64,000 bases of DNA from Anabaena sp. FACHB-1237 (GTDB lineage: Bacteria > Cyanobacteriota > Cyanobacteriia > Cyanobacteriales > Nostocaceae). The position numbers were made by a program, and so were the translations under genes. Location: NCBI RefSeq assembly GCF_014696225.1, contig NZ_JACJPV010000019.1, positions 1 to 64,000 of the forward strand, given 5' to 3'. Position 1 is the stretch's first letter. The number at the start of each line of letters is the position of its first letter. Under the pieces are notes generated by a model that worked only from the letters and a program-made list of their open reading frames with translations, was not told the DNA's origin and made no database searches. Positions 22,267-43,148 of this stretch are shown one piece after another.

Positions 22267-22407
22267 TTATTCATAAACGTGAATTTCTGCTTTAGCGATC
22301 GCCATTTTTACAGAATGATTATATAATTTTAATGCTGCATTATAATTAGCGATCGCCTGCTTAAAAAAAACCATTTTATAACTGTACATTTCCTTAATAA
22401 TACTCAT
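22267..22407 (-). CDS. Small ORF coupled to LysM gene, possibly a decayed TPR-type gene
   Basis: The 46-codon frame starts with ATG at 22407, overlapping the LysM gene stop by four bases (ATGA), the usual sign of translational coupling. It reads MSIIKEMYSYKMVFFKQAIA and then NYNAALKLYNHSV, resembling a TPR helix pair. It stops at TAA 22267. The same frame goes on with ESALQ, another stop, then AEQLEQENKLRPWGTE, suggesting that a longer gene has decayed by two nonsense codons. Whether a 46-residue product is made is unknown. Confidence 0.35.
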   Translation of the reverse strand: MSIIKEMYSYKMVFFKQAIANYNAALKLYNHSVKMAIAKAEIHVYE

Positions 22408-22949
22408 GGTTTTTTACCTTTGCAAGTAGGAGGAATTTTTAACACCTGATCTATCTTTAATTGATTTTCGCGCTTTTGTAATTCTGGGTTCACTGCAACT
22501 ATTAAAAGCCAGTCGGTAGGTTTGCTACACAATTTTCCCGCAATACCGCTTAAAGTATCACCTGATTTCACACTATAGGTTATGGATGGTGGTGTAGTGG
22601 GAACCACAGGTTTAATCGGAACAGATAGAATAGGAGAAGTAGTAACAGTAGGATTAGTAGGATTAGTAGAATTTCTAGTTTTACTGGAATTATTAGTATG
22701 ATCAGTATTAAAACTATATAAATTTTGTAAAGCGAAAAAACTTGCTCCTACACCAATAGTAATCCCAATTATTAACATGAGAATTGCTATTCCTGTACTC
22801 CACAATTTATCTTTTATATCTGGTTCTAACCCTTGTAGGGAACGAATTAAAAATACATCTGTTTGACAATTAGGACAAATATCAGTTTCAATTCCTTGAT
22901 AACCACAAACAGGACAATTAATTTTAGTATTCATCTTGTTGGTATTCAT
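22404..22949 (-). CDS. Zinc-ribbon, single-pass membrane, LysM protein
   Basis: This 181-residue protein has an N-terminal four-cysteine zinc ribbon (CPVCGYQG ... CPNCQ), one membrane helix (about 51-75, STGIAILMLIIGITIGVGAS), a Thr/Pro/Asn-rich linker and a C-terminal LysM domain (TYSVKSGDTLSGIAGKLC ... KIPP). The topology puts the zinc ribbon in the cytosol and LysM in the periplasm on peptidoglycan. It overlaps the upstream gene's ancestral stop and the downstream small ORF by ATGA in each case. It fits a physical bridge between cell wall and cytosolic Ter components; that role is inference. Confidence 0.75.
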   Translation of the reverse strand: MNTNKMNTKINCPVCGYQGIETDICPNCQTDVFLIRSLQGLEPDIKDKLWSTGIAILMLIIGITIGVGASFFALQNLYSFNTDHTNNSSKTRNSTNPTNPTVTTSPILSVPIKPVVPTTPPSITYSVKSGDTLSGIAGKLCSKPTDWLLIVAVNPELQKRENQLKIDQVLKIPPTCKGKKP

Positions 22950-23020
22950 CTTATCAATCCTGTAATAATATTATTAGTTGGTAATTCTTGACTTAACCAA
23001 TGTTGCACATCTGGCAATAA

Positions 23021-23497
23021 TTATCGCCATAATTGCACCGCTTCATATTTATCATGAATTTTGCCAGCATTCAACATTTGTGAAAGTTTTTCTGACATAG
23101 CATTTGCCTGAGTAGGTGCAATTAGTTTAGCCTGTTTGATCGCTAAAATACAACCTTGAATTAACTGGACGACTGAATGAGGTAAGTTCCGTAATTCTCG
23201 TTTACATTCTTCTTGATGATATTCCATACTGTAAAGATTATGACTCTTGATAGCTAGTTTTAACTCTTGACTGAGATTTTGTAATCTTTCTTGTTGTAAC
23301 TCATGAATGATGAAATCACATAATTTCAGTATGCGATCGCACTCATTAATTAAAGACTCTGTTTCTAACTTGATGGGCGACATATAGACCTGGAATTTCT
23401 GCAAACTTTCCTCAGTACGTTCTAAAATATCCAGATGTTCTTCTGCAGTGACAGGATTTTTAATGAAATTAGCTGATTGTACCACTGGTACAGCCAA
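23021..23497 (-). CDS. Unknown helical protein, prematurely stopped
   Basis: The 158-residue open frame is mostly alpha-helical (ESLQKFQVYMSPIKLETESL; LQQERLQNLSQELKLAIKSH). It stops at TAA 23021-23023, but the same frame reads on as LLPDVQHWLSQELPTNNIIT then GLIR. It ends at TGA 22946-22948, overlapping the next ATG (22949) as ATGA. That perfect coupling shows the ancestral gene was 26 codons longer and that TAA is a recent nonsense mutation, plausibly from CAA. The start is TTG at 23497 with AAGGA six bases upstream. I do not recognise the family. It sits in the Ter-arm operon. Confidence 0.6.
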   Translation of the reverse strand: MAVPVVQSANFIKNPVTAEEHLDILERTEESLQKFQVYMSPIKLETESLINECDRILKLCDFIIHELQQERLQNLSQELKLAIKSHNLYSMEYHQEECKRELRNLPHSVVQLIQGCILAIKQAKLIAPTQANAMSEKLSQMLNAGKIHDKYEAVQLWR

Positions 23498-23640
23498 TTT
23501 TAAATCCTTGACATAACGTTGTTGTTTAGCTCACGCAGAGTCGCAGAGTTACAGAGAGTTTGATTTTTAGTTTGATACTTTATGTTAGGTTGGATGTTAT
23601 GTTTAAATGTAAGTAAAAATACGGTTTATTTTCGGAATTT

Positions 23641-23704
23641 GTAGGTGATTCAGATATCAAGAATCTGTTTATTTACATCATTTATGCAGTCTCAAGTACC
23701 CTAC
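23641..23704. repeat. Family D inverted repeat, diverged copy
   Basis: It reads GTAGGTGATTCAGATATCAA at the left and AGTCTCAAGTACCCTAC at the right, matching the family D core with several substitutions. It separates the metalloprotease gene from the next gene of the operon. Confidence 0.6.
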
Positions 23705-24447
23705 ATCAGTGTATTTTCTACTTCCTGTAATATATTTCCTTTCACATACTTACAAATGGCTTTATTCATTAAAATCATTTGTCCCACATGAAAGGATGGG
23801 GGTATTAAACTATGAATACGATGATCTAAACCATCGTGCATCACGTCTGTGGCTAATTCTGAATGATCTAAGCCTAATGTATGTCCTATTTCGTGGGTAA
23901 TAGTATTAGCAATTAAATTAGATAATTGACTTAAATTAAGATTGGCTATCTCTGCTGTGCGTAAAATTTGATCTATCCGCACACCAGCTATATTTGTCAC
24001 TTCTCCTGGATTGAAACTAGCAATTCCTAAGTAATCTACTGGTTGTTGATCTATAAATATATAAACGTGAGTATATCTGTTACCCCATTCTTTTGGATCT
24101 GGTTGATCTGATGTTAAAAATACTTGGATACTTCTAAAAGCACTAAATACCTTAGCCAGTGCGTCCGTGATGACTTCGATAATAGTGGTATTATTTGTAT
24201 GATTATTTAGCATTCCTGAAAGATCAATCCAAACGCAATGGCGAATTTGCTCATCTTGAATATTATGTAATAATGTTCCACAAGAAGGACATATTCGCCA
24301 ATTAGTTTGAATGAGGGAACGACAACCTCGACAGCGTGGACGAGGAGGTCGTTGCAGGTTAATGCGTTCCCAAATGGGAACTTGTGATTTTTGCTGCTGG
24401 TTTTTTTTAGGTGGCCTAGTTAAATTTAGGCGATCATAAAGTGACAT
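23701..24447 (-). CDS. Zinc-ribbon plus HExxH (matrixin-like) metalloprotease
   Basis: This protein of about 248 residues has short RLNLTRPP and RINLQRPP repeats, a four-cysteine zinc ribbon (CRGCRSLI ... CPSCGTLL), then a metalloprotease domain. The domain has THEIGHTLGLDHSE (HExxHxxGxxH, metzincin zinc site) followed by DVMHDGLDH, where the Met supplies the turn. No signal peptide is seen, so it should act in the cytosol. The ATG at 24447 lies 19 bases after the terD stop, preferred over TTG 24462. Being in an operon with TerD genes suggests a stress- or conflict-activated protease; the substrate is unknown. Confidence 0.78.
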   Translation of the reverse strand: MSLYDRLNLTRPPKKNQQQKSQVPIWERINLQRPPRPRCRGCRSLIQTNWRICPSCGTLLHNIQDEQIRHCVWIDLSGMLNNHTNNTTIIEVITDALAKVFSAFRSIQVFLTSDQPDPKEWGNRYTHVYIFIDQQPVDYLGIASFNPGEVTNIAGVRIDQILRTAEIANLNLSQLSNLIANTITHEIGHTLGLDHSELATDVMHDGLDHRIHSLIPPSFHVGQMILMNKAICKYVKGNILQEVENTLM

Positions 24448-24466
24448 TACATTGTTTAACAATCAT

Positions 24467-25072
24467 CTAACAATAGGTTTTAGCTAATTCTCCTAAACCA
24501 TTTACAGTTACACCATTGCCAATAGCAGCCATTTTCCACTCATTATTATGGCGATAAACTTCTGCTAATACCATTCCTGTCATTCCATTATACTCTGTTC
24601 CTGAAAGATTGTATCTAGCTAATTCTTGATTATTTGCCATGTTGACTAACCGCACAAAGGCATTTTCAATTTGACCAAAGTTTTGTTTACGGGCTAAACA
24701 GTCGTAAATATTAATCACAAAAACTAATTTGCTAATGTCCGCAGGAATTTTAGGTAAATCAATGATAATTACTTCATCATCTCCATCTCCTGCACCTGTT
24801 AAATTATCTCCTGTGTGGGTAATGGCTCCTGATATATGTTGGAGATTTCCAAAGTAAACTATATTCTCTTTGGCTGTTAATTTGCCATTGCTATCTAAAC
24901 AAATTACAGAAGCATCTAAATCATATTCATGACCACCTTTACCAAAGTTGCTAAACAATCCTCCTCCTGATTTTTTAGCAATGTCCCAACCTAAACCACA
25001 CATTAATTTAGTTAAACCAGGAGCTTCTTTAGCAAGTGATATTCTTTGTCCTTTTTGTAAATTAATCGCCAT
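24467..25072 (-). CDS. TerD-family protein, copy 1
   Basis: This 201-residue TerD domain protein has the calcium-binding hallmark [33 protein letters not shown] with PADISKLVFVINIYDC, and a GEL-like end. TerD proteins form a beta-sandwich and bind Ca2+; they are linked to tellurite resistance, phage inhibition and general envelope or DNA stress. It starts with ATG after AGGAG (TAGGAGCAAAAAAA ahead of 25072). It is 21 bases downstream of its paralogue and ahead of the metalloprotease gene. A Gly-rich insert (SGGGLFSNFGKGGHEYD) distinguishes it from copy 2. Confidence 0.9.
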   Translation of the reverse strand: MAINLQKGQRISLAKEAPGLTKLMCGLGWDIAKKSGGGLFSNFGKGGHEYDLDASVICLDSNGKLTAKENIVYFGNLQHISGAITHTGDNLTGAGDGDDEVIIIDLPKIPADISKLVFVINIYDCLARKQNFGQIENAFVRLVNMANNQELARYNLSGTEYNGMTGMVLAEVYRHNNEWKMAAIGNGVTVNGLGELAKTYC

Positions 25073-25093
25073 TTTTTTTGCTCCTATTTGCTC

Positions 25094-25669
25094 CTAGCTA
25101 AAACGATCTAATAATGCTTTTAATCCACCTTGATAGCCTGAACCAACGGCATTTAAACGCCATTCTCCATCTTTCCGGTATAGTTCAGCCATAATTAATG
25201 CAGTTTCAATGGAATAGTCTTCTACAAGGTCATAACGAATTACTTCTTGTTCATTTTGTAAGTTGACAACTCTCACAAAGGCATTCTGTACTTGGCCAAA
25301 GTTTTGTCTTCTTTCTGCTGCTTCATGAATAGTGACAGTAATAACTATTTTTTGGACATCCGCAGGAACTTTTTGCAGGTTAATTTTGATTACTTCATCA
25401 TCTCCATCTCCTACACCTGTCAGATTATCTCCAGTATGTTCTATTGATTTTGCTGGATCTGGACTAGTTAAATTGTTGTAGAAAATAAAGTGGTTGTCAG
25501 ATATTAATTTATCATTTTTTCCTAATAAGAAGGCTGATGCATCTAGGTCAAAGTCAAATCCAGTATCCATGACTTTAACATCCCATCCTAAACCTACAAA
25601 TATTTCTGTTAACCCAGGAGCAACTTTGTCTAGTGATACTCGTTGTCCTTTGCTTAATGAAATTGCCAT
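25094..25669 (-). CDS. TerD-family protein, copy 2
   Basis: This 191-residue TerD protein has [64 protein letters not shown] and an end with [15 protein letters not shown]. It is first in the leftward arm, with GGAG six bases before ATG. The two TerD genes share the acidic Ca2+ signature but differ at many positions, so this is an old duplication. It faces the GTPase operon across 0.64 kb. The role is most likely as a Ca2+-binding stress scaffold, as in the Ter systems described by Anantharaman, Iyer and Aravind. Confidence 0.92.
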
Positions 25670-26313: not shown

Positions 26314-27060
26314 GTGGGAGTAGTTTTTATAGGCGATCGCGCTACGGGAAAAACACATTTAGCAATGGAGTTAACTAACCCCAAACATGAGTATGTAAAA
26401 GTTATTAATCAAGATTATGAAATGCTTAAAGCAAACCTGAAATTTGATGAAGTTTCTGGCGTGATGCAAGCAACAGATGTAATCTTAGATAGATTATTAG
26501 ATATTGAAGTGCGATTACCCACTGGTAATAAGCAAGTATTAGTAGATTGGATAGATACACCTGGGGAGGTATGGCGCAAAAGTTGGCAACAAGACAACCA
26601 AAAGGAATGGAGCAAACTTTTACAGACCATCCGCGATAGTGAAGGAATATTTCTCGTACTTCCACCCCATCGCGGCTTAACTTTTCAAGCTGGTGTGGAT
26701 GTGGATGAATTTATGAGTACACAACAATGGTGTGCTAGATTTGAGCGGTGGGTGGACTTTTTTCGTACGGATTGTCCGAAAGCAAGACATATAGTTATAT
26801 GTTTAAATAAGGCTGATCTATTTTGTAATTTATCCCAGGAAAGTTCACAGTTAGCTTATCATCCTAATGGTGGAGCGATGAATTGGCAACAACGCCATTT
26901 ATACAGTATGCAACGTTACTTTAGACCGATTCAATCACAGTTAGCAGAAATTAACAAAAGTGTTTCTGGTTTATCAGTACGTTGTTTTATTACATCGGTT
27001 TATGATCGTTCTTTATTGGAACTTCCTTGGATATATTTGGGTAGTTTTCTAGCTAAGTAG
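26314..27060 (+). CDS. P-loop (TRAFAC-like) GTPase, paralogue 1
   Basis: This 248-residue protein starts almost at its P-loop: VVFIGDRATGKTHLAMEL (G1). The G3 motif is DWIDTPGEVWRKSW (DxPG) and the G4-like motif is CLNKADLF (NKxD), which favours GTP. The start is GTG at 26314; a stop lies six codons upstream, so the N-terminus is tight. It lacks the shared C-terminal WRP(Y/F)GL segment of paralogues 2 and 3. It is likely cytosolic and membrane-recruited. A hairpin repeat at 27067 follows, so paralogue 2 may have a separate promoter. Confidence 0.75.
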   Translation: MGVVFIGDRATGKTHLAMELTNPKHEYVKVINQDYEMLKANLKFDEVSGVMQATDVILDRLLDIEVRLPTGNKQVLVDWIDTPGEVWRKSWQQDNQKEWSKLLQTIRDSEGIFLVLPPHRGLTFQAGVDVDEFMSTQQWCARFERWVDFFRTDCPKARHIVICLNKADLFCNLSQESSQLAYHPNGGAMNWQQRHLYSMQRYFRPIQSQLAEINKSVSGLSVRCFITSVYDRSLLELPWIYLGSFLAK

Positions 27061-27066
27061 AGACTA

Positions 27067-27099
27067 AGATACCGGACTTCTTAAAGAAGTCCGGTATCT
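27067..27099. terminator. Hairpin after GTPase paralogue 1
   Basis: Inverted repeat with arms AGATACCGGACTTCTT and AAGAAGTCCGGTATCT. Same family as 14492. It lacks a long T tract, so terminator strength is unclear. Confidence 0.6.
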
Positions 27100-27116
27100 G
27101 AAACAGATACAATATC

Positions 27117-27156
27117 AATAGGATAGAAAAATGGCGATCGCGGTTCTGGAAAAACA
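27117..27156 (+). pseudogene. Fossil of a fourth P-loop gene start
   Basis: The 16 bases AATAGGATAGAAAAAT at 27117-27132 repeat exactly at 27415-27430, the leader of GTPase 2. They are followed by 24 bases at 27133-27156 (GGCGATCGCGGTTCTGGAAA then AACA) identical to the Walker A codons of GTPase 3 at 28308-28331. The match then breaks off into a dispersed repeat. This is a chimeric remnant of a GTPase paralogue. Part of the match is a HIP1 octamer, but the rest is not. Confidence 0.65.
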
Positions 27157-27210
27157 AGCCAGAATAAATTCCCTGTCTGAAAGCTAAAATCGGTTTTAAC
27201 CGATTATTTG
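27157..27210. repeat. Dispersed repeat (CCCTGTCT ... CGGTTTTAACCG), copy 1
   Basis: It has AGCCAGAATAAATTCCCTGT followed by AAAATCGGTTTTAACCGATT. A copy with a fuller palindrome lies at 46324-46376, and a degenerate one at 27279-27310 (AAAATCAGTTTTAACTGATT). It is found between GTPase genes 1 and 2. The remaining intergenic bases to 27430 show no gene. Confidence 0.65.
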
Positions 27211-27430
27211 TAGATGAGATGATTTGTATTATTTCCACCGTCTTTTACAAAGAAAATTTAAATTCTAGGTAATAAATAAGGTAAAATCAGTTTTAACTGA
27301 TTGTTTGTATTATTTTCAACCTAATTGACAAATGATAGTACGTTTTAACGTAATTTAGCTATGAGAGGGGGAATTAATTGCCCTGCGGATATGGATACTA
27401 ACCAATAAGATATGAATAGGATAGAAAAAT

Positions 27431-28252
27431 ATGGGGAATATTCGCGTTATTGGTCCACGTAGTTCTGGTAAAACCACTTATTTAGCCGCTTTAGCTTATC
27501 AACCAGCGAGAAATCATCATCAAAATCAAAACTTTCAAGTTCATACTCTTAATGATGATACAAAACAGTTAGCAGAAAAAGCGGAAAATATTATCATGGA
27601 GGGTGCATCATTAGAACCTACTAATAATTACGTTACAACCATTGATGATTTACGAGTTTATTCATTTCAAATAGAAGTTAAAAAAGGTTTTTCTCAAGAC
27701 AAAATTAACCTGGTTGTGAGAGACTATCCAGGTGAAATATTTGAGGAATTAGAACATGGTTCATCTAACCCATTACATCAAGAATTTATGGATGAATGTT
27801 TAGCCAAAGATGTGACTGGTTGTTTAATATTATTAACTGAGTGGAAACAAGGTACTGATAGGACTTATAGCCGAGTTTTAAAACGTTTTATTGACCAAAT
27901 GGATAAACATGAACGTTCTCAAGATTTACGTTTAGCTGTGGTGATGAGTAAATGTGAAAGAGGAGAATTATGGCCGGGTAGGTTAGATCCAGAAATTGAT
28001 TTGTTTGATGTCCATTTACCAGAAACAAAAAAGACTTTACAAGATGCAATTCCTAGTAAAAATCTGAACTTTTATGCTTTATCCACCTTTGGTGTTTTAG
28101 GTCGTAATAACCCTCGTCCTAACCGTGTAGAGGAAATGGGAGCAGATGGCAAAAATTCATTTTTAAGAGAAACAAACCGATGGCGACCCTACGGTTTAAT
28201 TTCCCCTCTCTATTGGTTAAGTACAGGTAAAAGGATAAAATATGAAAGTTAG
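27431..28252 (+). CDS. P-loop (TRAFAC-like) GTPase, paralogue 2
   Basis: This 273-residue protein has the P-loop VIGPRSSGKTTYLAALAY at residues 5-22, G3 VVRDYPGEIFEELEH, and a G4-position motif VVMSKCERGELW in which SKCE replaces NKxD. The C-terminal FGVLGRNNPRPNR and RWRPYGLISPLYWLSTG are shared with paralogue 3. Such G4 drift also occurs in divergent TRAFAC 'double-GTPase' conflict proteins, so nucleotide specificity is uncertain. It overlaps the next gene by 11 bases. The leader AATAGGATAGAAAAATATG gives AGGA nine bases before the ATG. Confidence 0.78.
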   Translation: MGNIRVIGPRSSGKTTYLAALAYQPARNHHQNQNFQVHTLNDDTKQLAEKAENIIMEGASLEPTNNYVTTIDDLRVYSFQIEVKKGFSQDKINLVVRDYPGEIFEELEHGSSNPLHQEFMDECLAKDVTGCLILLTEWKQGTDRTYSRVLKRFIDQMDKHERSQDLRLAVVMSKCERGELWPGRLDPEIDLFDVHLPETKKTLQDAIPSKNLNFYALSTFGVLGRNNPRPNRVEEMGADGKNSFLRETNRWRPYGLISPLYWLSTGKRIKYES

Positions 28253-29144
28253 TACCTTAGCAAATAAGAAAGAACCGTTACAAAGTAGTGCAGTGGTGCG
28301 CGTGATAGGCGATCGCGGTTCTGGAAAAACAGCCTATATGGCTTCCTTAGCACGGTGGCCTAATGCTGATCCAAACGGAGCAGTAAAAACTGTCATTCCT
28401 GTGGGAGATGCTGCAAAATATTTAGTGGAACAAGCACAAAATATATTAGAACAGGGGTTACAATTACCACAAACTGGCTTAAACGCTAATCCAGATGAGG
28501 TTAAAGATTATACATTACAAATTACCATTACTAGACAATTTTCGTGGAAAAATCTGATAAATAGCCTGACCTCACCATTATTAAACTTAAACGTTAGTTG
28601 TAAAGATTACGGCGGAGAGTTTTTTATTGATCTATTGCAACAAGCTGGTAAAAAAATCTTACAAGATTATATGGAAGATTGTTCCCAATCTACAGGTATA
28701 ATGTTGTTAATAGATGGTACTAGCAGAAGGAAGGATCAAGAATATGCAGTAGCTTTAGATCGGTTTTTTGCTGCCCTTGATCGTACAGATGTTAATGTAG
28801 GGAAAAGAAGAATTGCTTTAGTTTTAACCAAGTGTGAACAATCTGACCTGTGGGTAAATCGTCATAAACCCGATTTTATCGCTCCCGCAGCTTTTCCCCA
28901 GGTATGTAAAAAATTATCTACTTGGCAACAAATGGGAGGAGGTGACGTAAATTACTTTACTGCTTCCGCTTTTGGAATGTTAGGTACTAAATATCCTGAA
29001 CCTAATATTACCTTATTAACTCGTGGCCGTGATGGAGTAACAGCAGTGATCAAAAACCCCAAAAGCTGGCGGCCATTTGGTTTAGTTGCTCCCATATATT
29101 GGTTATGTACAGGCGATCGCCATAAACTATTAGAGAATGGTTAA
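28242..29144 (+). CDS. P-loop (TRAFAC-like) GTPase, paralogue 3
   Basis: This 300-residue protein has the P-loop VIGDRGSGKTAYMASLARWP at about 21-40, a G3-position CKDYGGEFFIDLLQ and a G4-position VLTKCEQSDLWVN. The same C-terminal pattern as paralogue 2 is present: FGMLGTKYPEPN and SWRPFGLVAPIYWLCTG. It overlaps paralogue 2 by 11 bases and is followed after 17 bases by the 707-residue gene, so all form one operon. The paired GTPases could form heterodimers or stacked switches; this is inference. The HIP1 octamer overlaps the Walker A codons. Confidence 0.78.
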   Translation: MKVSTLANKKEPLQSSAVVRVIGDRGSGKTAYMASLARWPNADPNGAVKTVIPVGDAAKYLVEQAQNILEQGLQLPQTGLNANPDEVKDYTLQITITRQFSWKNLINSLTSPLLNLNVSCKDYGGEFFIDLLQQAGKKILQDYMEDCSQSTGIMLLIDGTSRRKDQEYAVALDRFFAALDRTDVNVGKRRIALVLTKCEQSDLWVNRHKPDFIAPAAFPQVCKKLSTWQQMGGGDVNYFTASAFGMLGTKYPEPNITLLTRGRDGVTAVIKNPKSWRPFGLVAPIYWLCTGDRHKLLENG

Positions 29145-29161
29145 TTATCAGGAATAAAGCT

Positions 29162-31285
29162 ATGAATCAATTAAATCGATCTACCATAGAAATTCACGAA
29201 TTTAGTACAGGTATTAGACCACAGGCAATAGCTACGGGTGCTTGGGTATCATTAGGCTTCACTGGACAATATATGAATAATACTATTGATCCGATTCCTG
29301 AAGTTGTAGAGCGTTCTATTGCTAACCGTGAATTTGCGGTAGCTGAAGGTGCTTCTAGTGACCAACCCGCAATTATTGGCCGGGTAGTAGGAACAGGTGA
29401 TGATACTTGGTCTGTAGTAGCAATAGTTACTAAGGGAAGGGATGAAAAAGGACGTGGTGCTTCCATGTATCGTTTTTTTCTCACTCAGGGAAGGGAAAAA
29501 GACGGGTTTCAAAATTTACGGTTAATATTAACTTGGTGGGAAAATCAAGAAAGACCAATATTTCATCCTTTTGATATTCAAGAAGTAGATAAACCTCATA
29601 TATGTGATGTTGAGGAAATTTCGGCTAAATTTCATCAAGTATCACAAGAAGCTGTAGCAATTCCTGTTAATATTAATGAACCAATATTACTCACACCACA
29701 ACAGGAATACGACTTACAAACCATCAATGTTTTAGCATTGAAAAAATATAATACTAATGTGAAATATGATAATTATCAACCTTTTTCTTGGGCGTATAAT
29801 GTAGAAGCATTAGAAAAACCAGAGCGTTTTTTAGTAATTCATGCTGCTTCAGAAAAAGCCTATCAATTATTAGAAAGAGCGATTAATAAAGCACCAAGAT
29901 TATTAATATCTTCGGCTGTTACAGATGAGGAAGCTATTAAGTCAGCGATACGCGGTTTAACAACTAATTCTCAAATTAAACCAGATAATGTAAAAGTGAT
30001 AGTAGAGGCTTTACAAAATAATCAACTTACTTCAGACTATTGGCATAGTTTATTTGATGCACAGGGAGCAACAACGGCAATTAGTCAAAAAATTTATAGT
30101 CCACAAATGGTAAGATTGATTACTTTGAGGGCGATCGTAATTCCAGATACAATGTTAGAATTTTTGAGTTTTTTAAATATTAAACCTGGTCAAAAACCTG
30201 ACGAAAATCAAGCTATTTCTTTAGAATTTCAAAAGGCTATTCGGCGTGATTTACCTAAAGATAAACTGGCAAATAGTATTAAATCTTTGTTACCGGAATT
30301 GTTAAAGAAATCGTCAAAAATTACGCCAGAAGGTGTTAAATGGTTATTGGTAAGTAATGATAGTGTTTGGGCATCTGGATGTAAACAATTTATTGAAGAT
30401 ATTGTAGCTGATTTGCAGTTAATTTTCAGTCATTTAAAACATAATACTCCTCCTTCATCTGAGTTATATAAATGTCCTCCTAAAACTTGGGAAATTTTAA
30501 TCAAAAATCGCAAATATATCTACTCAAAATCATATAGTATTAAGCAAGAAGAATACAGTTCTTTTGCTAAGTTATTTGAGAGTTTGGAATACTATTCACT
30601 TGCTGCTTATTTTTATCAAGTTAGTGAAGGTATAGTACCTAAAGATGTATTTGAGGGACTTCCACATAGACGTAATTCTCCTGTGGAAATTTTAGGTTTG
30701 TGTATTGAAAGAGAAACCACTTTTTTTGAAAGTATTATTATTTTTTTATTACAGGAGTATATTGTGCCAATTCAATTTGTTATTACCTTATCAATTTTCC
30801 TCTCACTTTTGTCTTTTACAGGTGGTGTACTGGTAGGTAGATTAAATAATCCAAAGATTGCAGAAACAGTCGTATCATCATCACCAACAAATACAAATGG
30901 TGATCAAACTGAAATAACTAATGAATTAAAATCAAAAGCAAGTAACGAGTTCCAAAAAACCCAGGACGCAATTAATGAAATTATCAACAATATCAAGAAG
31001 GCAAAAAAGAATGCACAACAAAGTGAAATTATAAAACAGATTATAGAGGTTCTAAAGTTACCAGAAAATTTTGAATATGACACAACACAGTACGCAGGAC
31101 AAAAAAGAAATGAATTTATAGAAGCAATATATAAATATCAACAAAACAATGGTTTTAACAACTGCGACGGAATTATTTCACCAAAAGGAGAAACAGCTAC
31201 AAAATTAGAACAAGATGTAACTAAAAAAATACAAGATGTAACTAAAAAAACAAAAGCAAATCCTAAACGAATAAACAACCCATGA
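29162..31285 (+). CDS. GTPase-associated membrane protein with peptidoglycan-binding-like end
   Basis: This 707-residue protein begins with a soluble domain (STIEIHEFSTGIRPQAIATG, FAVAEGASSDQPAIIGRVVG and GRGASMYRFFLTQG) that resembles the N-domain of 'GTPase-associated protein 1' types found beside TRAFAC GTPases. A helical middle (200-520) and one membrane segment (about 545-570, FVITLSIFLSLLSFTGGVLV) follow. Then comes a coiled coil and a short PG_binding-like unit (FIEAIYKYQQNNGF ... GIISPKGETATKLE). It shares an ATGA overlap with the next gene. The GAP1 link is recognition from memory and needs a profile search. It likely tethers the GTPases to the membrane. Confidence 0.6.
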   Translation: MNQLNRSTIEIHEFSTGIRPQAIATGAWVSLGFTGQYMNNTIDPIPEVVERSIANREFAVAEGASSDQPAIIGRVVGTGDDTWSVVAIVTKGRDEKGRGASMYRFFLTQGREKDGFQNLRLILTWWENQERPIFHPFDIQEVDKPHICDVEEISAKFHQVSQEAVAIPVNINEPILLTPQQEYDLQTINVLALKKYNTNVKYDNYQPFSWAYNVEALEKPERFLVIHAASEKAYQLLERAINKAPRLLISSAVTDEEAIKSAIRGLTTNSQIKPDNVKVIVEALQNNQLTSDYWHSLFDAQGATTAISQKIYSPQMVRLITLRAIVIPDTMLEFLSFLNIKPGQKPDENQAISLEFQKAIRRDLPKDKLANSIKSLLPELLKKSSKITPEGVKWLLVSNDSVWASGCKQFIEDIVADLQLIFSHLKHNTPPSSELYKCPPKTWEILIKNRKYIYSKSYSIKQEEYSSFAKLFESLEYYSLAAYFYQVSEGIVPKDVFEGLPHRRNSPVEILGLCIERETTFFESIIIFLLQEYIVPIQFVITLSIFLSLLSFTGGVLVGRLNNPKIAETVVSSSPTNTNGDQTEITNELKSKASNEFQKTQDAINEIINNIKKAKKNAQQSEIIKQIIEVLKLPENFEYDTTQYAGQKRNEFIEAIYKYQQNNGFNNCDGIISPKGETATKLEQDVTKKIQDVTKKTKANPKRINNP

Positions 31286-35750: not shown

Positions 35751-36581
35751 ATGAAAAAAATCTCCTCTTTCTCACTTTTATTAACTATGACTACAGCATC
35801 TACTATTCTATATGGATGTAATAGTTCTGAGACTTCATCCCAAAAATCATCATCTGCAATTAACTCTATCATTAAACCTGCAACTTGTCCAAAACAACCT
35901 AATATCGCTTTACAAGCAAAAAATGTGGAAGAAATTACCCTTAGTGATACAATATTAAATAAATCAGGTAATGTGAGTGATAATCAAGCTATTGGTTATA
36001 AATTTACTGCCCAAAAAGGAGAAAGAATAAGTTTATCTACAAGTAATAGTAATATTTGTATATGGGTTTATAGTCCTGATAATCAAATTATCTCAGGAGG
36101 GAAATTACCAACCACAGGAAAATATATTATGCAAATTTCTGCATTACAAGGACAACAAAATTTTGATATACAATTACAATTATTAGATATTGTTTTAACA
36201 CAAGATATGGCTTTAAATATCGTGCAAAAATGGTACAGTGCTAAACCTAAAATATTTGCACCTCCCTTTGATACTAGTCTTGCGGAAGGCATAACTACAG
36301 GTAATTTCTATCAAAATTTAATTAGTGATGAAGGTTCAGTCGCTTGGTTAAAAAAGTATGATAGTTATTATGAATATAAAGAATCTAAAATAGTGCAAGT
36401 GAGGAATTTTAGAAGTAATGAAGATTCGGGTTTGATTAATGTTCAAGTGGTAGAAGAACTTTATCTTCATGGACCAAAAGGAATTGATCAAAAAAATTCA
36501 GGAAGATTTATAATCAATGGTACATATTATTTTATCAGAGATAATGGAGTATGGAAAATTAGTGATGTTAAAAAAATATAA
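35751..36581 (+). CDS. Lipoprotein 3 of the same family, more diverged
   Basis: This 276-residue protein has lipobox STILYGCNSS, then CPKQPNIALQAKNVEEITLS, IGYKFTAQKGERISLSTSNS, ICIWVYSPDNQI and GKYIMQISALQGQQ. These match the N-domain of lipoproteins 1 and 2. The C-terminal half (ALNIVQKWYSAKPKIFAPPF ... FIINGTYYFIRDNGVWKISD) is a longer NTF2-like form resembling the IMS/ARC6-like tail of cyanobacterial proteins. No long linker is present. It is the oldest-looking copy of the three. Spacing and direction put it in the same operon. Confidence 0.7.
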   Translation: MKKISSFSLLLTMTTASTILYGCNSSETSSQKSSSAINSIIKPATCPKQPNIALQAKNVEEITLSDTILNKSGNVSDNQAIGYKFTAQKGERISLSTSNSNICIWVYSPDNQIISGGKLPTTGKYIMQISALQGQQNFDIQLQLLDIVLTQDMALNIVQKWYSAKPKIFAPPFDTSLAEGITTGNFYQNLISDEGSVAWLKKYDSYYEYKESKIVQVRNFRSNEDSGLINVQVVEELYLHGPKGIDQKNSGRFIINGTYYFIRDNGVWKISDVKKI

Positions 36582-36620
36582 AACTTATTAAAATTTATGG
36601 TAAAATCATGAGGTGCAATT

Positions 36621-37004
36621 ATGGTAAAATATTCATTTACTCTCACAGTCAAAGATACCAAGGAACAATACACTTATGCGTTAGACTTAAATTATCAACA
36701 AGAAAATTCTCCTGAAGATATTTTTATTCCCCAAGTTCGGGAAAACCTGAGAAGCGCGTTACAAAATCAAAGTCAATGTGCCATCAGAAATAATCATCTA
36801 AACCACATTATCCAAACTTGGATACAAGACATCAAAGAAGGTTTTAGAAATAGTGGACTTACTCTCAGTTTACCTTTATTAAGTGAAACAAATATGGAAG
36901 ATTTACATGAAACTGGTTATCAAGATTTACCCGTGATCATTCCTCCTAATTTATCAAAATTAGAACCAGAAATGGGGATGTTACCACCTTTGAATTTTTG
37001 TTAA
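36621..37004 (+). CDS. Small unknown protein of the island
   Basis: This 127-residue soluble protein starts MVKYSFTLTVKDTKEQYTYA and includes PEDIFIPQVRENLRSALQNQ then HIIQTWIQDIKEGFRNSG. It ends in a Pro/Leu-rich tail (IIPPNLSKLEPEMGMLPPLN then FC). GAGG lies eight bases before the ATG. I do not recognise the family. It sits directly ahead of the TerY-like gene and may be a partner or adaptor; this is only positional. Confidence 0.55.
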   Translation: MVKYSFTLTVKDTKEQYTYALDLNYQQENSPEDIFIPQVRENLRSALQNQSQCAIRNNHLNHIIQTWIQDIKEGFRNSGLTLSLPLLSETNMEDLHETGYQDLPVIIPPNLSKLEPEMGMLPPLNFC

Positions 37005-37059
37005 ATTTGTTAAATTTGTTAAGCCATGACAATTATTAATTAAATTAAGGATGATAAAA

Positions 37060-38361
37060 ATGAGTAATGAATTAAATGTTAGTATTGCACCACATCGGGA
37101 ATTTATGCCAGCAGATACAGATAATCAAAAACTGTTTTTGATGCTAAAATTAAAACCTACAAAAAGTATTGCCGCAACTCGTCCTCCCACAAGTTTTGTA
37201 TTTGTCATAGATACCAGTGGTTCAATGTATGAAGAAGTGGGAGGAGGAAAAATTAAAATAGATATTGTCATTGAGTCTTTATTAACATTAATTCGTTCGG
37301 GAAGATTAGGAGAAAAAGATCACATTGCTATCGTTCAATTTGATGATAAAGCATCTCAAATAATTGGGTTAACCAGTGCTACTAAAATTAGTGAATTGGA
37401 AAATGCGATCGCTAAATTGCGTAAATTTTCCGGTGGTACTTGCATGGGTTTAGGTTTAGATACTGCATTACAAAGCTTATCTAACCAAGATATGACAGTA
37501 AAGCGGATATTATTATTTACAGATGGACAAACCTTTGATGAAGATCAATGTCGAGCGATCGCTCCTAAAATGTCCACTAATAACATTCCCATTACCGCTT
37601 TAGGAGTAGGCGACTTTAACGAAGACCTACTTACTTATTTAAGCGACACAACAGGAGGAAGTTTATTATATATAGTACCTGGACAAGCCCAGGGAACACA
37701 GGTATCTATCACAGACTTACCAAAAAAGATTATAGAAGAATATAGTCAAGCACAACAGGAGGTAATCACCAACTTAGCATTAAGAGTTAAAACAGTTCAA
37801 GGCGTAGAATTAAACCGCATAGTTCGGGCATATCCCACACAATCAGAATTTCCCTTAACACAACCACCTTATCCCATTGGTAACGCAGCAGCTAATGATC
37901 AAACCATCTTGATTTTAGAACTTACTATGACTAGTCGTCCCGCGTCCCGTGTACGTTTAGCCCAAATTGGCTTAACCTACGATATTCCTGGACAAAACTT
38001 CAGAGGGGAATTTCCGCCGCAAAATTTAGTGGTACAATTTGTAACAGGAGAAGCAGGAGCAGTACAAGTGAATCAAGAAGTGATGGATTACTTGCAACAG
38101 TGTAATATTTCTAACCTTGTTGGTCAAGCCACCAAAATAGCAGATCGAGATCCCCAGAAAGCGGGAGAACTGCTAGAAACCGCTAGACGCATGACCTTGA
38201 GACTGGGTAACGACGAAATGACAGCATCATTAAATAACGCCCAAGAGGAATTACGTAAAACTCGCAAAATATCCGATACCACTCGTAAAACCGTCAAAAT
38301 AGGAGCGAAAGGTAAAACCGTGAAAATTGGTACGGATATTAACGATGAGTTCTTAGAATAA
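37060..38361 (+). CDS. TerY-like vWA protein with Thr-rich tail
   Basis: This 433-residue cytosolic vWA protein has VFVIDTSGSMYEEVGGGKIK (MIDAS D-x-S-x-S), ALQSLSNQDMTVKRILLFTD (second MIDAS strand) and a C-terminal beta-rich domain. It ends with the tandem motif TTRKTVKIGAKGKTVKIGTD, where threonines sit in KTVKIG repeats as candidate kinase/FHA phosphosites. The ATG at 37060 is used because AAGGA lies eight bases before it; the ATG at 37051 directly abuts that site. Together with the downstream FHA, PP2C and kinase genes this is the TerY-P triad known from Ter systems. Confidence 0.82.
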   Translation: MSNELNVSIAPHREFMPADTDNQKLFLMLKLKPTKSIAATRPPTSFVFVIDTSGSMYEEVGGGKIKIDIVIESLLTLIRSGRLGEKDHIAIVQFDDKASQIIGLTSATKISELENAIAKLRKFSGGTCMGLGLDTALQSLSNQDMTVKRILLFTDGQTFDEDQCRAIAPKMSTNNIPITALGVGDFNEDLLTYLSDTTGGSLLYIVPGQAQGTQVSITDLPKKIIEEYSQAQQEVITNLALRVKTVQGVELNRIVRAYPTQSEFPLTQPPYPIGNAAANDQTILILELTMTSRPASRVRLAQIGLTYDIPGQNFRGEFPPQNLVVQFVTGEAGAVQVNQEVMDYLQQCNISNLVGQATKIADRDPQKAGELLETARRMTLRLGNDEMTASLNNAQEELRKTRKISDTTRKTVKIGAKGKTVKIGTDINDEFLE

Positions 38362-38484
38362 ACCAACATCAACTAAAATATAGACATCACAACCTACCAA
38401 AAAACTCCATAAAACTCCCTTTTCTTCGCTTCCTTCGCTTATTCGTGGTATAACACATAACATAATTAAAAAGGAGATATATCA

Positions 38485-39063
38485 ATGATTACCTGTTCAG
38501 CGTGCGGTTATGAAAATCAAGACAATTCAGAATTTTGTGATGCTTGTGGTTCAGAACTACAACCAGTCATTAATAAGCTATATTCCCCTGAAGCACCTAC
38601 AGTAGTACAAGCAGAAATAATACAACCACTAATAGCAGCACCAATTCAAAAAAATCAACCTATTTATCCGCCTCAAAATATTACACAACCTACATTTCCA
38701 TCCTTTCCATCCTTTCCTAGTACCACCACTACCGCACGACTGATATCTAAACAACCTAATCCACCAGTAGCAGAATTTACTTTAGAACCTAGTAATCTTA
38801 TTGGGATATTCGATCCAGATATGGGACCTGTGGAAATTGATTTAGAAGTATTTTTAGGTAGTGATACTGTATCCCGTCGTCATGGAGAAATTTACTTAGA
38901 ATCAGGAGTTTGGAAAATTAAAGATACTGGTTCTACCAACGGTATATTTATCAAACCTGCTGGACAAGCCCGTTTTAATGCGAGAATTACCACACCTGAA
39001 ACGCTTAATCCAGGAGATGAAGTAGCGTTTGCAAAAGTGCGGTTTGTGTTTCAAAGTCCTTAA
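38485..39063 (+). CDS. Zinc-ribbon FHA protein
   Basis: This 192-residue protein has an N-terminal zinc ribbon (CSACGYENQDNSEFCDACGS), a Pro-rich linker (PSFPSFPSTTT), then an FHA domain. The domain has LIGIFDPDMG (a variant of the usual GR start), SRRHGEIYLESGVWKIKDTG then STNGIFI, and LNPGDEVAFAKVRFVF. S-x-R-H and N-G are both present, so phospho-Thr binding is expected. The perfect Shine-Dalgarno AAGGAGATATATCA precedes the ATG. It likely recruits the phosphorylated vWA or kinase. The last codons lie in a 40-bp tandem repeat. Confidence 0.85.
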   Translation: MITCSACGYENQDNSEFCDACGSELQPVINKLYSPEAPTVVQAEIIQPLIAAPIQKNQPIYPPQNITQPTFPSFPSFPSTTTTARLISKQPNPPVAEFTLEPSNLIGIFDPDMGPVEIDLEVFLGSDTVSRRHGEIYLESGVWKIKDTGSTNGIFIKPAGQARFNARITTPETLNPGDEVAFAKVRFVFQSP

Positions 39064-39124
39064 AACTCCAGATCCCCGACTTCTTGTGTTTCAAAGTCCT
39101 TAAAACTCCAGATCCCCGACTTCT
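39045..39124. repeat. 40-bp tandem duplication over the FHA gene's 3' end
   Basis: The segments 39045-39084 and 39085-39124 are near-identical. The first carries the gene's last codons and stop; the second duplicates them out of use. The duplication carries half of the GATCCCCGACTTCTT hairpin. Confidence 0.85.
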
Positions 39125-39141
39125 TGAAGAAGTCCGGGATC
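39111..39141. terminator. Hairpin between FHA and PP2C genes
   Basis: Inverted repeat with arms GATCCCCGACTTCTT and AAGAAGTCCGGGATC. Same family as 14492. It lacks a clear T tract, so read-through to the PP2C gene is likely. Confidence 0.55.
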
Positions 39142-39169
39142 TAAATCTGTACAAATCAGTATATAAATT

Positions 39170-40945
39170 ATGAACTTACTAACTGAAAACACCAACGATC
39201 ATTTAGGTATTGAACCTTTAATCATTGCCGAAAATAATATTATTAATATCGCCAATTTTCAAGTAAAAATTGGACAATATTTGGGGCAATTGACCACTGA
39301 TATTTATTATTTTCAAGTCAATATTTTAAGTGAAGATAGTAATACTAATAAACTGGGTTTATTGCGAGTAGGAACATTAACAAGTGGACTAAAAAGAGAA
39401 ATAGAAATTAGAGAAGCGATCGCAGATTATAAATTAATTAGTCCCTTATTAACCCATACACAAATTGATTGTGTTATTATTCATCTTCCCTCATCTAATA
39501 ATCAAGAATATCCAGACAATGCGCCTATTACAGAAGAAATTACTACCGAACAAACGGCAAATGAAGCAACAACCAATGAACTAGAAAATGAATCAGAATA
39601 TTTAGCAGAAGAATATTATCAACAAGAGGAAATTAACCCTAATATATCACCAGAAAAACTCATCTTACTTAGTTATCTTCCCGAATCTAACGAAACCTTA
39701 GAAACCTGGTTAACCCAAGAAACATCCTTAGAAGAATCCATATTTATAGTTACACAAATATGTCAAGTTTCCCGTTATTTACATCAACATAATTGGTGTA
39801 TAATCAACATCTTACCCCAATTTATTCAAATGACAACTCCCATCCAAATATATGATCTTACCAATGTTTATCCCGTCAATGAAACCCTAAATACAGGACT
39901 ATTAGGAAAATATTGCGCTCCCGAATTAGCATCACAAAAAAATCCCATCAACGAATTAATGAATAGTTATACAGTGACAGCATTACTATATCATAAAATT
40001 CACCAAAAACCCATAAATATAGAACAATTAATAGACATCAAAATTAACCCCATACCGCGCATTTATCAAATTCTCAAAATTAACCTATCACTCATTCCCG
40101 AAGAAAGATTTTCCTTATCTCAACTATTAGCAAACTTAGTAGAAACTCGTCAATCACTAACAGCACCTAAAATTACATGGCAAATTGCTAATAATTCTAC
40201 CTTGGGTTTATCCACCAAAAGATTACAAAATGAAGACAATTATGGAGTAAAACAACAACAATTAAGCAATACAGAAACCATGATTTTAGGAGTAGTTGCT
40301 GATGGTATGGGAGGAATGTCCCAAGGAGAATTAGCTAGTAAAATAGCAGTACAAACCGTATTATCAGAACCTATACCTAGTAACTTTAAAACCTTAGAAC
40401 AAAGACAAGCATGGTTAAAATTACTATTTGAAAAAGCCAATGAAAATGTTAATCATCATGTTAAAGATGGAGGAACTACACTAAGTGTAATTTTAGCCAT
40501 TGGTAAACAATTAATAATTGCCCATGTGGGAGATAGTAGAATATATTTAATCAGCAAAGGAGAAATTAGGCAAATTAGCGAAGATCATTCATTAGTTGCT
40601 TTATTAGTGGCCAGTGGAGAAATTACCCTAGAAGAAAGTTTAACCCATCCAGATCGCAATGTGTTAACTAAATCTATCGGTTCAAAAAATAGACTTAGTG
40701 CAGGATATATTCAAGATTTAAGCACCACAAATCAAGAATTATCCATCAACTTAGAACATCAAGATATATTATTACTTTGTTCCGATGGAATTTGGGATTT
40801 AGTACCAAATCATGAATTATTAGAACTTTTTAATCAAACCGAAAATTTACAATCTAGTATTAATCAAACCATTAATAATGTACTAGAAAGAGGAGCATCC
40901 GATAACGCCACAATTTTAGCTTTACAATGTCAAATGGAGAAATAG
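39170..40945 (+). CDS. Pseudokinase-PP2C phosphatase fusion
   Basis: This 591-residue protein ends in a PP2C domain (about 335-590) with RLQNEDNYG, VVADGMGGMSQGE, HVGDSRIYLI, CSDGIWDLV and GASDNATILA, all metal-binding positions present. The first 330 residues read as a degenerate kinase fold: N-lobe YLGQLTTDIYYFQVNIL, the HRD position replaced in LHQHNWCIINILPQFI, the DFG position read as YDLTN, then GKYCAPELASQ. The catalytic Asp and DFG are missing. The pseudokinase could act as a scaffold or sensor for the PP2C. It is the phosphatase limb of the TerY-P triad, 13 bases before the kinase gene. Confidence 0.82.
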   Translation: MNLLTENTNDHLGIEPLIIAENNIINIANFQVKIGQYLGQLTTDIYYFQVNILSEDSNTNKLGLLRVGTLTSGLKREIEIREAIADYKLISPLLTHTQIDCVIIHLPSSNNQEYPDNAPITEEITTEQTANEATTNELENESEYLAEEYYQQEEINPNISPEKLILLSYLPESNETLETWLTQETSLEESIFIVTQICQVSRYLHQHNWCIINILPQFIQMTTPIQIYDLTNVYPVNETLNTGLLGKYCAPELASQKNPINELMNSYTVTALLYHKIHQKPINIEQLIDIKINPIPRIYQILKINLSLIPEERFSLSQLLANLVETRQSLTAPKITWQIANNSTLGLSTKRLQNEDNYGVKQQQLSNTETMILGVVADGMGGMSQGELASKIAVQTVLSEPIPSNFKTLEQRQAWLKLLFEKANENVNHHVKDGGTTLSVILAIGKQLIIAHVGDSRIYLISKGEIRQISEDHSLVALLVASGEITLEESLTHPDRNVLTKSIGSKNRLSAGYIQDLSTTNQELSINLEHQDILLLCSDGIWDLVPNHELLELFNQTENLQSSINQTINNVLERGASDNATILALQCQMEK

Positions 40946-40958
40946 GAGAAATAAAACA

Positions 40959-43148
40959 ATGTCTATGTCTATTCAATGTCCCAGTTGCTTATCAACAAAT
41001 ACTGCTAATACTGTTCACTGTATTTACTGTGGTACTTTCCTAAATACCATTCAAAATACTACTCAAAATCCAATTTATAATAAAGTTCCTCATACTAGTA
41101 ATCAAAATGCCATCAATTACCTAGCATTAACATCAGGAACATTGCTAGGAAAAAGTAAATATCAAAAACCAATATATGAAATAGAAAAATATTTAGGACA
41201 AGGAGGTTTTGGTATTACTTATCAAGCTATTTATCTCCAAAATAACACATCTGTGGCCATTAAAGAATTGTGGCCAGAAGGAGGTTATAGACAAGGAACA
41301 ACCGTATGTTGGCCGCATTCCATTAAACCCCAAGATAGACACAAACAGCTGCAAAAATTTCAGGAAGAAGCTAGTAATTTACAAAAATGTATTCATCCGC
41401 ATATTGTGCAAGTTTATGATTGGTTTTTAGAAAATGATACAGCATACATGGTTATGGAATTACTTTCTGGTAAATCCTTAGATAAGATATTATTAGAAGA
41501 AGGTATTTTAAGCGAAGATAGAGTTAAACATTATTTTTTACAAATCGCAGAATCATTAAAAGTAATTCATGGCAATTCTCTATTACATCGAGATATTAAA
41601 CCAGAAAATATTATCATTGTTCCTCCCGAAAGAGCAGTATTAATTGATTTTGGTGCAGCAAGAGAATTTATTGCTGGCCAAACTGGAGATATGACAAGAA
41701 TTTTAACCCCAGGATATGCTCCCTATGAACAATATCGAGCGCGAAATCAACCTTTACCTGCTACAGATTTTTATGCTTTATCAGCATCAATGTATCAATT
41801 ATTAACGGGAGAATTACCCGCAGCTTCCGCAGAAAGAGCAGGTAATTTAGCGAGTAAAAATAATCCTTCAGATCCTTATATTTCCCCACGTAAATTAAAT
41901 AGTAAACTCAGTTATTTAATGGAACAAATTATTAATACTGGTTTACAATTTGATGCGGAGGATCGATTTCAAACTGCAGATGACTTAATTGATGCTTTAA
42001 ATGATAAATTTATTTCTCCTACTCATAAAAAAGCCCAAGAATTAGTTAAGCAGGGAAAATTAAAAGATGCGATTATCTCTTATGAAAAATTACTTAATTA
42101 TGAAATAAATAATGGTAAAGCTACGGTTGAATTAGCCTTAGTACAAAGTTATGTAGATATTAAAAAAGCAGAAATAACTGCCCAAAAAGCCATTAAATTA
42201 GAACCGCATGATGGTAGAGGATATGGAGTTTTAGGACTAGTTAATTGTCATCATCAGAACTGGAAACAAGCTGTTAAATATTTAGAACAAGCTGCTAATT
42301 TATGTCCCCAAGAAATATGGATACAAAGTAATTTGGCTTGGGCATTAGGAAAATGTGACAATTGGCAACAAGCTGAAAATGTCATCAATAAAGTATTATT
42401 ATTAGATGGTAATTGTATCTTTGCATTAAGTTTGCAAGCATGGATATATACAAAACAAAAACAATGGAAATCCGCAGTTCGTTCTGCTGCCCAAGCTGTT
42501 TTTAAGTTAAAACAAACACCATTCAGTAATAGTAAAGAAACGATATTATGGGTTTATCCCTATTTAATTATAGCTTTGGAAAAAGTAGTTATTACCCAAC
42601 AAGCGAACGATGTGGAAAGACGTATTCAAGAATTTATTGCCCAAGTACCCGAAAATTCCGTAGCATGGGGTTTACAAGGTTGGGAAAAAGCCAAAAATGG
42701 TTTATGGAATGATGCTATTTATAGTTTTGAACAAGCTAGTCAGAAGAAAGATGTGAGTAGTTGGATATTAATAAATTATGGTATTAGCTATGAACATTTA
42801 CAAAATTATGCAGCAGCTATTCAAGTTTATGAACTGCACAATCAAAAATTTCCTCCTCATGCCTTTATTTGTTTTCGTTTAGGGACTTTATATGGTAAAT
42901 TAGGACAATGGAATGAAGCTAAAAAACATTTAGAAAAAGCAATTCAATTAAATCGCAACTATGCCCAAGCCTATCATAATTTAGGTTGGGTTTTATTAAA
43001 TATTACAGATGCCTATGGCAAAATTGAAACCCCTCGTCAGGTTTTATTCAATTATCGCAAAGCAGTGGAACTTTATCAACAGCAACAAAAACCTACCTTA
43101 GCAGCAGATATTCAACAGAGTTTTCAATTAGTTGGTATTAATATCTAG
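40959..43148 (+). CDS. Zinc-ribbon Ser/Thr kinase with TPR repeats
   Basis: This 729-residue protein has an N-terminal zinc ribbon (CPSCLSTN ... CIYCGTF), then a complete protein kinase at about 73-345. It shows GQGGFGITYQA, VAIKELWPEGG (Lys102), LLHRDIKPENIII (Asp212), DFGAAREF (Asp230) and PGYAPYEQYRARNQ (APE-like). A TPR array of about six to eight repeats follows at 355-720. It is the last gene of the rightward arm and overlaps nothing. It probably phosphorylates the vWA tail and lipoprotein-linked partners; the TPRs supply docking. Several cyanobacterial kinases share this domain order. Confidence 0.9.
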   Translation: MSMSIQCPSCLSTNTANTVHCIYCGTFLNTIQNTTQNPIYNKVPHTSNQNAINYLALTSGTLLGKSKYQKPIYEIEKYLGQGGFGITYQAIYLQNNTSVAIKELWPEGGYRQGTTVCWPHSIKPQDRHKQLQKFQEEASNLQKCIHPHIVQVYDWFLENDTAYMVMELLSGKSLDKILLEEGILSEDRVKHYFLQIAESLKVIHGNSLLHRDIKPENIIIVPPERAVLIDFGAAREFIAGQTGDMTRILTPGYAPYEQYRARNQPLPATDFYALSASMYQLLTGELPAASAERAGNLASKNNPSDPYISPRKLNSKLSYLMEQIINTGLQFDAEDRFQTADDLIDALNDKFISPTHKKAQELVKQGKLKDAIISYEKLLNYEINNGKATVELALVQSYVDIKKAEITAQKAIKLEPHDGRGYGVLGLVNCHHQNWKQAVKYLEQAANLCPQEIWIQSNLAWALGKCDNWQQAENVINKVLLLDGNCIFALSLQAWIYTKQKQWKSAVRSAAQAVFKLKQTPFSNSKETILWVYPYLIIALEKVVITQQANDVERRIQEFIAQVPENSVAWGLQGWEKAKNGLWNDAIYSFEQASQKKDVSSWILINYGISYEHLQNYAAAIQVYELHNQKFPPHAFICFRLGTLYGKLGQWNEAKKHLEKAIQLNRNYAQAYHNLGWVLLNITDAYGKIETPRQVLFNYRKAVELYQQQQKPTLAADIQQSFQLVGINI

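Follow-up and report, generated by a model that had tools for sequence, protein, structure and literature searches.

The window analyzed here is a 64,000-nucleotide stretch of Anabaena sp. FACHB-1237 (contig NZ_JACJPV010000019.1, positions 1 to 64,000). Two divergent gene arms lie next to each other within it, a left arm on the minus strand (22404-25669) and a right arm on the plus strand (26,314-43,148), the latter being a conserved, mobile cyanobacterial operon, probably for envelope signaling, that is undescribed in the open-licence PubMed Central (PMC) literature searched. An initial annotation had joined both arms into one 21-kb island of Ter, GTPase, vWA, and kinase genes. Its two arms, with their coordinates, strands, and most protein assignments, were confirmed by open reading frame (ORF) and family searches.

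The right arm begins with three P-loop NTPases, termed G1 (26314-27060), G2 (27431-28252), and G3 (28242-29144). These are followed by GAP (29162-31285), a 707-aa protein whose model (mean predicted local distance difference test [pLDDT] 87.2, predicted template modeling score [pTM] 0.67) has an alpha/beta N-domain, a helical middle, one transmembrane segment (TM; ~537-558), and a helical C-domain. Next come mFHA (31282-32433), a multi-TM protein with a beta-rich C-terminal domain, and vWAx (32315-33682), an exported vWA protein with a signal and a C-terminal TM recognized by eye; the start codon of vWAx is uncertain and its ORF overlaps mFHA. Lipoproteins A (33702-34733, lipobox by eye), B (34833-35696), and C (35751-36581, with an ARC6-like_IMS domain, 7e-21) were indeed paralogous by hhalign, the third only across 126 residues. 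U127 (36621-37004), a conserved 127-aa protein, sits between this core and an output module that comprises a TerY-like cytoplasmic vWA protein with an intact MIDAS (37051-38361), a zinc-ribbon FHA protein (38485-39063), a probable pseudokinase fused to a PP2C that looks active by its motifs (39170-40945), and a zinc-ribbon Ser/Thr kinase with TPR (40959-43148), in which the catalytic motifs are intact and the zinc ribbon was seen by eye as CxxC pairs. The initial assignments thus held for the P-loop NTPases, the 707-aa and 127-aa proteins, the exported vWA, and the output-module parts. For the pseudokinase-PP2C fusion, the PP2C half stood and the pseudokinase half is plausible only (hhalign E 0.0011, probability 21%, collinear with the operon's kinase). 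The "FHA-like" label of the membrane protein mFHA was not upheld, as neither Pfam (PF00498) nor hhalign found an FHA-family match (probability 0.1 against the operon's own FHA family).

GAP and U127 were sought independently in 291 genomes of the order. GAP was present in 61 and U127 in 55, with 54 carrying both where 11.5 were expected (Fisher 9e-50), and at the genus level 37 were common to the 39 and 38 genera with each gene (1.6e-27); these p-values are descriptive because the genomes are related and do not count as independent samples. In G027, the one genome with U127 and no counted GAP, the U127 cluster includes a divergent GAP. Both genes were kept where they lie far apart, that is, ~435 kb in G282, ~1.27 Mb in G184, and ~168 kb in G250, and the module beside U127 was complete in the first two of these and partial in the third. 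We then scored ten genes (G1, G2, GAP, mFHA, vWAx, U127, TerY-like vWA, FHA, PP2C, and kinase) in 46 GAP regions of up to 40 kb, which come from 45 of the other 60 genomes with GAP and from a second locus of the window's own genome. All ten were on one strand in 20 regions, 19 of them arranged as in the window. Some scored genes were missing from the remaining 26 regions owing to contig ends, modules split or rearranged (e.g., G083 and G133), or reduced gene sets; in G142, G184, G282, G016, and G041, for example, nothing but G1-G2-G3-GAP, or just GAP, is present.

A scan of one genome per GTDB species yielded 71 named loci, including Dolichospermum, Trichodesmium, Okeania, Microcystis, and Arthrospira. 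Seventy were titled cyanobacteria and the remaining one (L222) carried a Chloroflexaceae label; because the two short peptide patterns of the scan favor close relatives, restriction to cyanobacteria is unproved. Where the locus left room, G1-G2-G3 lay directly upstream of GAP in 43 of 51 and mFHA-vWAx directly downstream in 37 of 47. The right arm is conserved far beyond chance and constitutes one operon and one co-inherited unit. In Dulcicalothrix (L185), G1-G2 and G3-GAP are separated by ~5 kb with an oppositely oriented 958-aa ORF, which suggests a later insertion.

A second, divergent copy of the cluster in the window's own genome (G000:C1:36983-48943; L053, L240) reads G1-G2-G3-GAP-GAP-mFHA-vWAx-U127, with an ATPase after U127 instead of vWA-FHA-PP2C-kinase. 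This ATPase was called AAA+ from motifs by eye. The same sister form was found in G286, G032, and G027, the four ATPases being 65-89% identical. What differs between the two forms is the module behind U127, with the core unchanged.

G2 and GAP were each detected in eight cyanobacterial plasmid records. The operon occupies about half of the 35.8-kb plasmid B of Trichormus variabilis ATCC 29413, where a Beta-lactamase2 protein (1.4e-13) is added, and in Nostoc linckia NIES-25 it is carried on a plasmid typed conjugative. The plasmid copy of Fremyella diplosiphon NIES-3275 adjoins caspase, GUN4, and CoxE-type vWA genes. The operon is also chromosomal, both in the window, next to psbB, and on complete-genome contigs of several Mb.

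Among the P-loop proteins, G2 exceeded the Pfam gathering score for DO-GTPases (PF19975, 36.1 bits; PF19993, 34.2 bits; cut-offs 27), with G3 (25.2 bits, DO-GTPase2) and G1 (15.5 bits) under it. Relatives of G1 matched DO-GTPase1 in 22 of 28 cases at E<=0.1 (best 1.9e-6), with the window's G1 below the cut-off. By hhalign, G2 and G3 are close paralogues and G1 is a distant one, which corrects the initial description of the trio. The P-loop Lys was kept in every member (41/41 G1, 42/42 G2, 39/39 G3). A Glu after the Walker B Asp (DxxGE), which the published DO-GTPase description gives as conserved (PMC7159879), was present in 37/41, 40/42, and 37/39, respectively. Between G1 and G2, at 27118-27160, the G2 leader "aataggatagaaaaat" is repeated before a short in-frame P-loop-like GDRGSGKTS, perhaps left over from the duplicated start of a GTPase gene; this element, seen by eye, is immediately preceded by a palindrome.

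The C-ends of GAP relatives vary. PG_binding_1 was recognized in 6 of 32 at E<=1 and in 5 of 27 at E<=0.001, reaching 1.1e-10 in the C-domain of L103, and PP2C and TPR were each found in one member. Tandem GAP copies occur, for example in Anabaenopsis (L170/L171), and in L170, L171, L168, and L199 such arrays hold up to about five paralogues with differing C-ends. In L222 (3013-4257), a short contig that looks mixed, a GAP-N domain stands behind a zinc ribbon and a coiled coil, without GTPases. Identification of GAP as GAP1-N2 by profile was rejected: PF20013 matched nothing in the window's genome at E<=10 and nothing over cut-off in 244 cyanobacterial genomes (one weak match), and it was not among the matches listed for GAP members and their consensus, one listing giving 25 of 60 families. 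A search for GAP1-N2 sequences within the phylum of the L222 genome likewise gave 0 of 116. A GAP profile search against PDB sequences returned nothing meaningful.

By structure, the GAP N-domain is most like TagF, the repressor of type VI secretion (9t0n; Z 7.7, root-mean-square deviation [rmsd] 4.2, 202 residues aligned), a score in the range under 8 that can reflect a common fold arrangement. In Foldseek, seven of the first eight rows were TagF or PA0076, itself a TagF, with a best E of 0.03. Matches to the same region at Z 3.8-4.4 included longin or DENN parts of GTPase regulators (GATOR1, DENND1A/B, FLCN, Lst4, and a Roadblock-longin), and also SecB. Together, the modeled longin, DENN, and TagF likenesses would fit a partner of GTPases. 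Sequence tests for TagF were negative: TagF_N (PF09867) had no match in the own genome and hhalign of GAP against TagF gave a probability of 0.4%, not above controls, though D-x-x-G-R motifs pair. The U127 model returned no significant fold match with VIA (best 6tgs, Z 5.9, rmsd 2.9, 76 aligned) or Foldseek (best E 0.1), and its predicted beta-grasp-like fold is a weak assignment. In the output module, the kinase Lys, HRD, and DFG and the PP2C Asp residues were each present in 25 of 25 members, and MIDAS motifs were kept in both vWA families.

These observations led us to read the right arm as a mobile, modular, envelope-spanning signaling system, that is, a GTPase-gated phospho-threonine switch that senses the state of peptidoglycan or the envelope, a reading to which we give about an even chance. 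We infer its topology, signal, order of events, and final target as follows. GAP would span the inner membrane, its C-terminal domain in contact with peptidoglycan; on the cytoplasmic side, its N-domain would act on the three GTPases, and the exported vWA and lipoproteins would complete a periplasmic sensor, to which other copies would add a beta-lactamase-fold protein. A change in the wall or envelope would pass through the GAP N-domain and alter the GTPases, whose state U127 may relay to the output module. In this copy the kinase/PP2C pair would write and erase phospho-threonine marks, the FHA protein would read them, and the vWA protein would serve as scaffold; in the sister form the output would be the AAA+ ATPase.

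What was observed directly is the set of parts with their catalytic motifs, their co-inheritance and presence on plasmids, the swap of the module, and a genome with an empty site (described below). We favor the envelope-switch reading because GAP and U127 are co-inherited also when unlinked, gene order is kept, and catalytic motifs are intact, and because of PG_binding_1 in relatives, Beta-lactamase2 in a plasmid copy, the one TM of GAP, and the swapped output. Several points weigh against it. The window's own GAP had no PG_binding_1 match in the Pfam profile search, and seven GAP genomes were without U127 (G142, G010, G016, G041, G066, G202, and G245), two of them (G010 and G066) being incomplete assemblies of 86% and 71%. 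NKxD is present only in G1, and G2 and G3, which lack it, may not be specific for GTP. The GAP N-domain resembles TagF by structure and not by sequence, and another TagF structure (6iz8_A) reached no more than Z 3.8.

More tentatively, and with a probability that we put well below that of the envelope switch as such, the GAP N-domain may regulate GTPases as a bacterial domain of longin/TagF type, and U127 may be a beta-grasp adaptor resembling a Ras-binding domain, which would let a single GTPase core anchored to peptidoglycan drive different outputs, either kinase/PP2C/FHA or an AAA+ ATPase. In 11 annotated plasmid loci of type VI secretion systems (T6SS), tagF followed tssM in all 11, and a PP2C or kinase followed tagF in seven, one of the seven on the other strand and the gene after tagF not being visible in one of the 11. 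TagF is reported to bind Fha and, in Agrobacterium, to be fused to the phosphatase (PMC5995506). The parallel is striking, as a P-loop protein, a TagF-like protein, a PP2C, a kinase, and an FHA protein form the set in both systems. If the N-domain is of longin/TagF type, T6SS control by TagF and the cyanobacterial systems would both descend from one older envelope switch gated by GTPases, and the P-loop domain of TssM would be the predicted target of TagF.

Should the envelope-switch reading be right, many filamentous and bloom-forming cyanobacteria would carry a mobile envelope-sensing switch of the size of a secretion control system. That nature has exchanged the kinase module for an AAA+ ATPase while keeping the core would mark where the signal must pass. 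Moreover, plasmid B of Trichormus variabilis and the Fremyella plasmid bring the operon into laboratory strains, which makes the DO-GTPase/GAP idea, so far a genome prediction, testable.

Among the alternatives, an antiviral or conflict system is the strongest, possible but distinctly less probable than the envelope switch: GAP would sense an invader, the GTPases would set a threshold, and the variable GAP C-termini and outputs would be effectors that contain infection. A published prediction shares the GTPase family and the kinase/PP2C/vWA theme; the spread is patchy and plasmid-borne; GAP occurs in tandem with varied C-ends; and caspase, GUN4, and CoxE-type vWA genes stand beside the Fremyella copy. 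At that locus (L227:1407-12464), these genes and a WD40 kinase recall the VMAP ternary systems described by Kaur et al. However, PADLOC, run on 10 of the 19 proteins of both arms, gave no diagnostic model and strong matches only to generic kinase models and PP2C (4e-11). Flanking genes matched 82 PADLOC families at E<=1e-20 in the system sample versus 62 in the control, a comparison without a formal test that counts families rather than proteins and in which many models overlap; among the best 25 families listed per sample, none matched more than 2 of 99 proteins. A defence-island reading was rejected on this lack of a clear excess. No nuclease, pore, or other toxic effector was recognized, the 48 pattern matches to G2 in IMG/VR viral contigs yielded none that was confirmed, and a PHROGs search of eight proteins gave nothing useful. 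The phage-defence role raised in the initial annotation is hence without direct support for the right arm, and we keep it as a candidate because the predicted DO-GTPase/GAP systems and the variable GAP C-ends point there.

We consider it unlikely that the operon serves a plasmid function, such as surface exclusion or maintenance, and was carried along into chromosomes. The eight plasmid records, the share of Trichormus plasmid B, and the conjugative plasmid are in its favor, but the chromosomal copies by psbB and on contigs of several Mb speak against it. Still less probable is that the operon controls a contractile injection machine (a type VI or a cyanobacterial contractile injection system) in the manner of TagF/PpkA/PppA/Fha, a reading to which the kinase, PP2C, FHA, and TagF-like fold and the tssM-tagF gene order would lend themselves. 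Sheath genes (PF04984), present in 122 of the 291 genomes, co-occurred with GAP at chance (27 versus 25.6 expected, p 0.77), for which an injection machine as output was rejected, and the own genome is without a TagF_N match.

The left arm comprises the LysM protein, a 158-aa unknown (U158), a zinc-ribbon metalloprotease (Peptidase_M10, 2.9e-5; HExxHxxGxxH spotted by eye), and two TerD proteins (PF02342, 3e-75 and 6e-82), named TerD2 and TerD1, all as initially described; these are the only two TerD of the genome. The metalloprotease was found in 28 of the 291 genomes. In 20 fetched metalloprotease loci, TerD1 was beside it in all 20, TerD2 in 19, and LysM in one, which also holds a U158 fragment. 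The arm is not co-inherited with the operon, because its overlap with GAP is near chance (7 genomes, 5.9 expected, p 0.63) and linkage is absent elsewhere: in the six other shared genomes the metalloprotease was never on GAP's contig within 700 kb, and left-arm genes occurred in 0 of 46 GAP regions and 0 of 71 named loci. The genus-level overlap (11 of 21 genera, 6.8 expected, p 0.04) is read as weak shared ancestry, not linkage. In G286 (L135), lepB-LysM-metalloprotease-TerD1 is followed by psbB and rpsA (these flanking genes named by eye) with the right arm absent at the site, its sister form being located elsewhere; in the window, TerD2 and the operon stand between these same flanks, and the sequence ahead of psbB is still alignable. 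The operon was therefore inserted there, or lost from G286. No common 12-base repeat was found in the two intergenic flanks. A 108-aa ORF (43714-44040) lies between the kinase gene and psbB. The TerD-TerD-metalloprotease set is a conserved cyanobacterial unit (L135-L154) independent of the right arm, and the Ter half stands beside the operon by accident.

A single 21-kb Ter/GTPase/kinase island is thus rejected as barely credible, its adjacency in the window and the genus-level overlap being outweighed by the chance-level genome overlap, the missing linkage, and the empty site. The gene-neighborhood comparison that the initial annotation had proposed bears out its joined system for the GTPases, envelope parts, and kinase/PP2C/FHA/vWA genes; for the left arm it gave the outcome that the annotation itself had named as refuting, which removes TerD, the metalloprotease, and LysM, leaving the "island" as a chance neighborhood.

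Compared with known systems, the left arm corresponds to the TerD-TerD-metalloprotease unit of cyanobacteria. In Ter systems, vWA, PP2C, and kinase genes are encoded together as a TerY-P triad, reportedly described by Anantharaman et al. 2012. The right arm shares the joint encoding and differs in that TerD is linked only in the window and the vWA protein at 37051-38361 shows no TerY C-terminal domain match: this metal-binding domain was not among families at E<=0.1, and the PADLOC TerY model covered 33 residues only (2e-4). The "expanded TerY-P" of the initial annotation accordingly fits in its trio and not in its vWA.

The threonine phosphorylation pathway of T6SS (PMC5995506) has in common with the right arm a kinase, a PP2C, an FHA protein, and an envelope link, and possibly also a TagF-like fold encoded beside a P-loop protein (in the window by structure alone). 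Unlike that pathway, the right arm is without a link to contractile sheath genes.

Closest are the DO-GTPase/GAP1 conflict systems predicted by Kaur et al. 2020 (PMC7159879), where the kinase/PP2C/vWA theme is restricted to actinobacteria. This third theme shares with the operon DO-GTPases with a GAP-type partner (often with C-terminal TMs), a zinc-ribbon kinase, PP2C, and standalone vWA in one neighborhood, and membrane and cell-wall parts around a constant core with variable modules. The window's operon differs from it in being cyanobacterial, in having three GTPases, and in lacking PF20013 and FNIII, the latter with no Pfam match in the 19 proteins; no cyanobacterial DO-GTPase/GAP operon was found in the literature searched. 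Because GAP is not recognized as GAP1-N2 and an FNIII protein was not seen, the operon appears, by its sequence, to be a new variant of the DO-GTPase/GAP kind, one that carries, beyond the published theme, an FHA protein, lipoproteins, a multi-TM protein, and U127.

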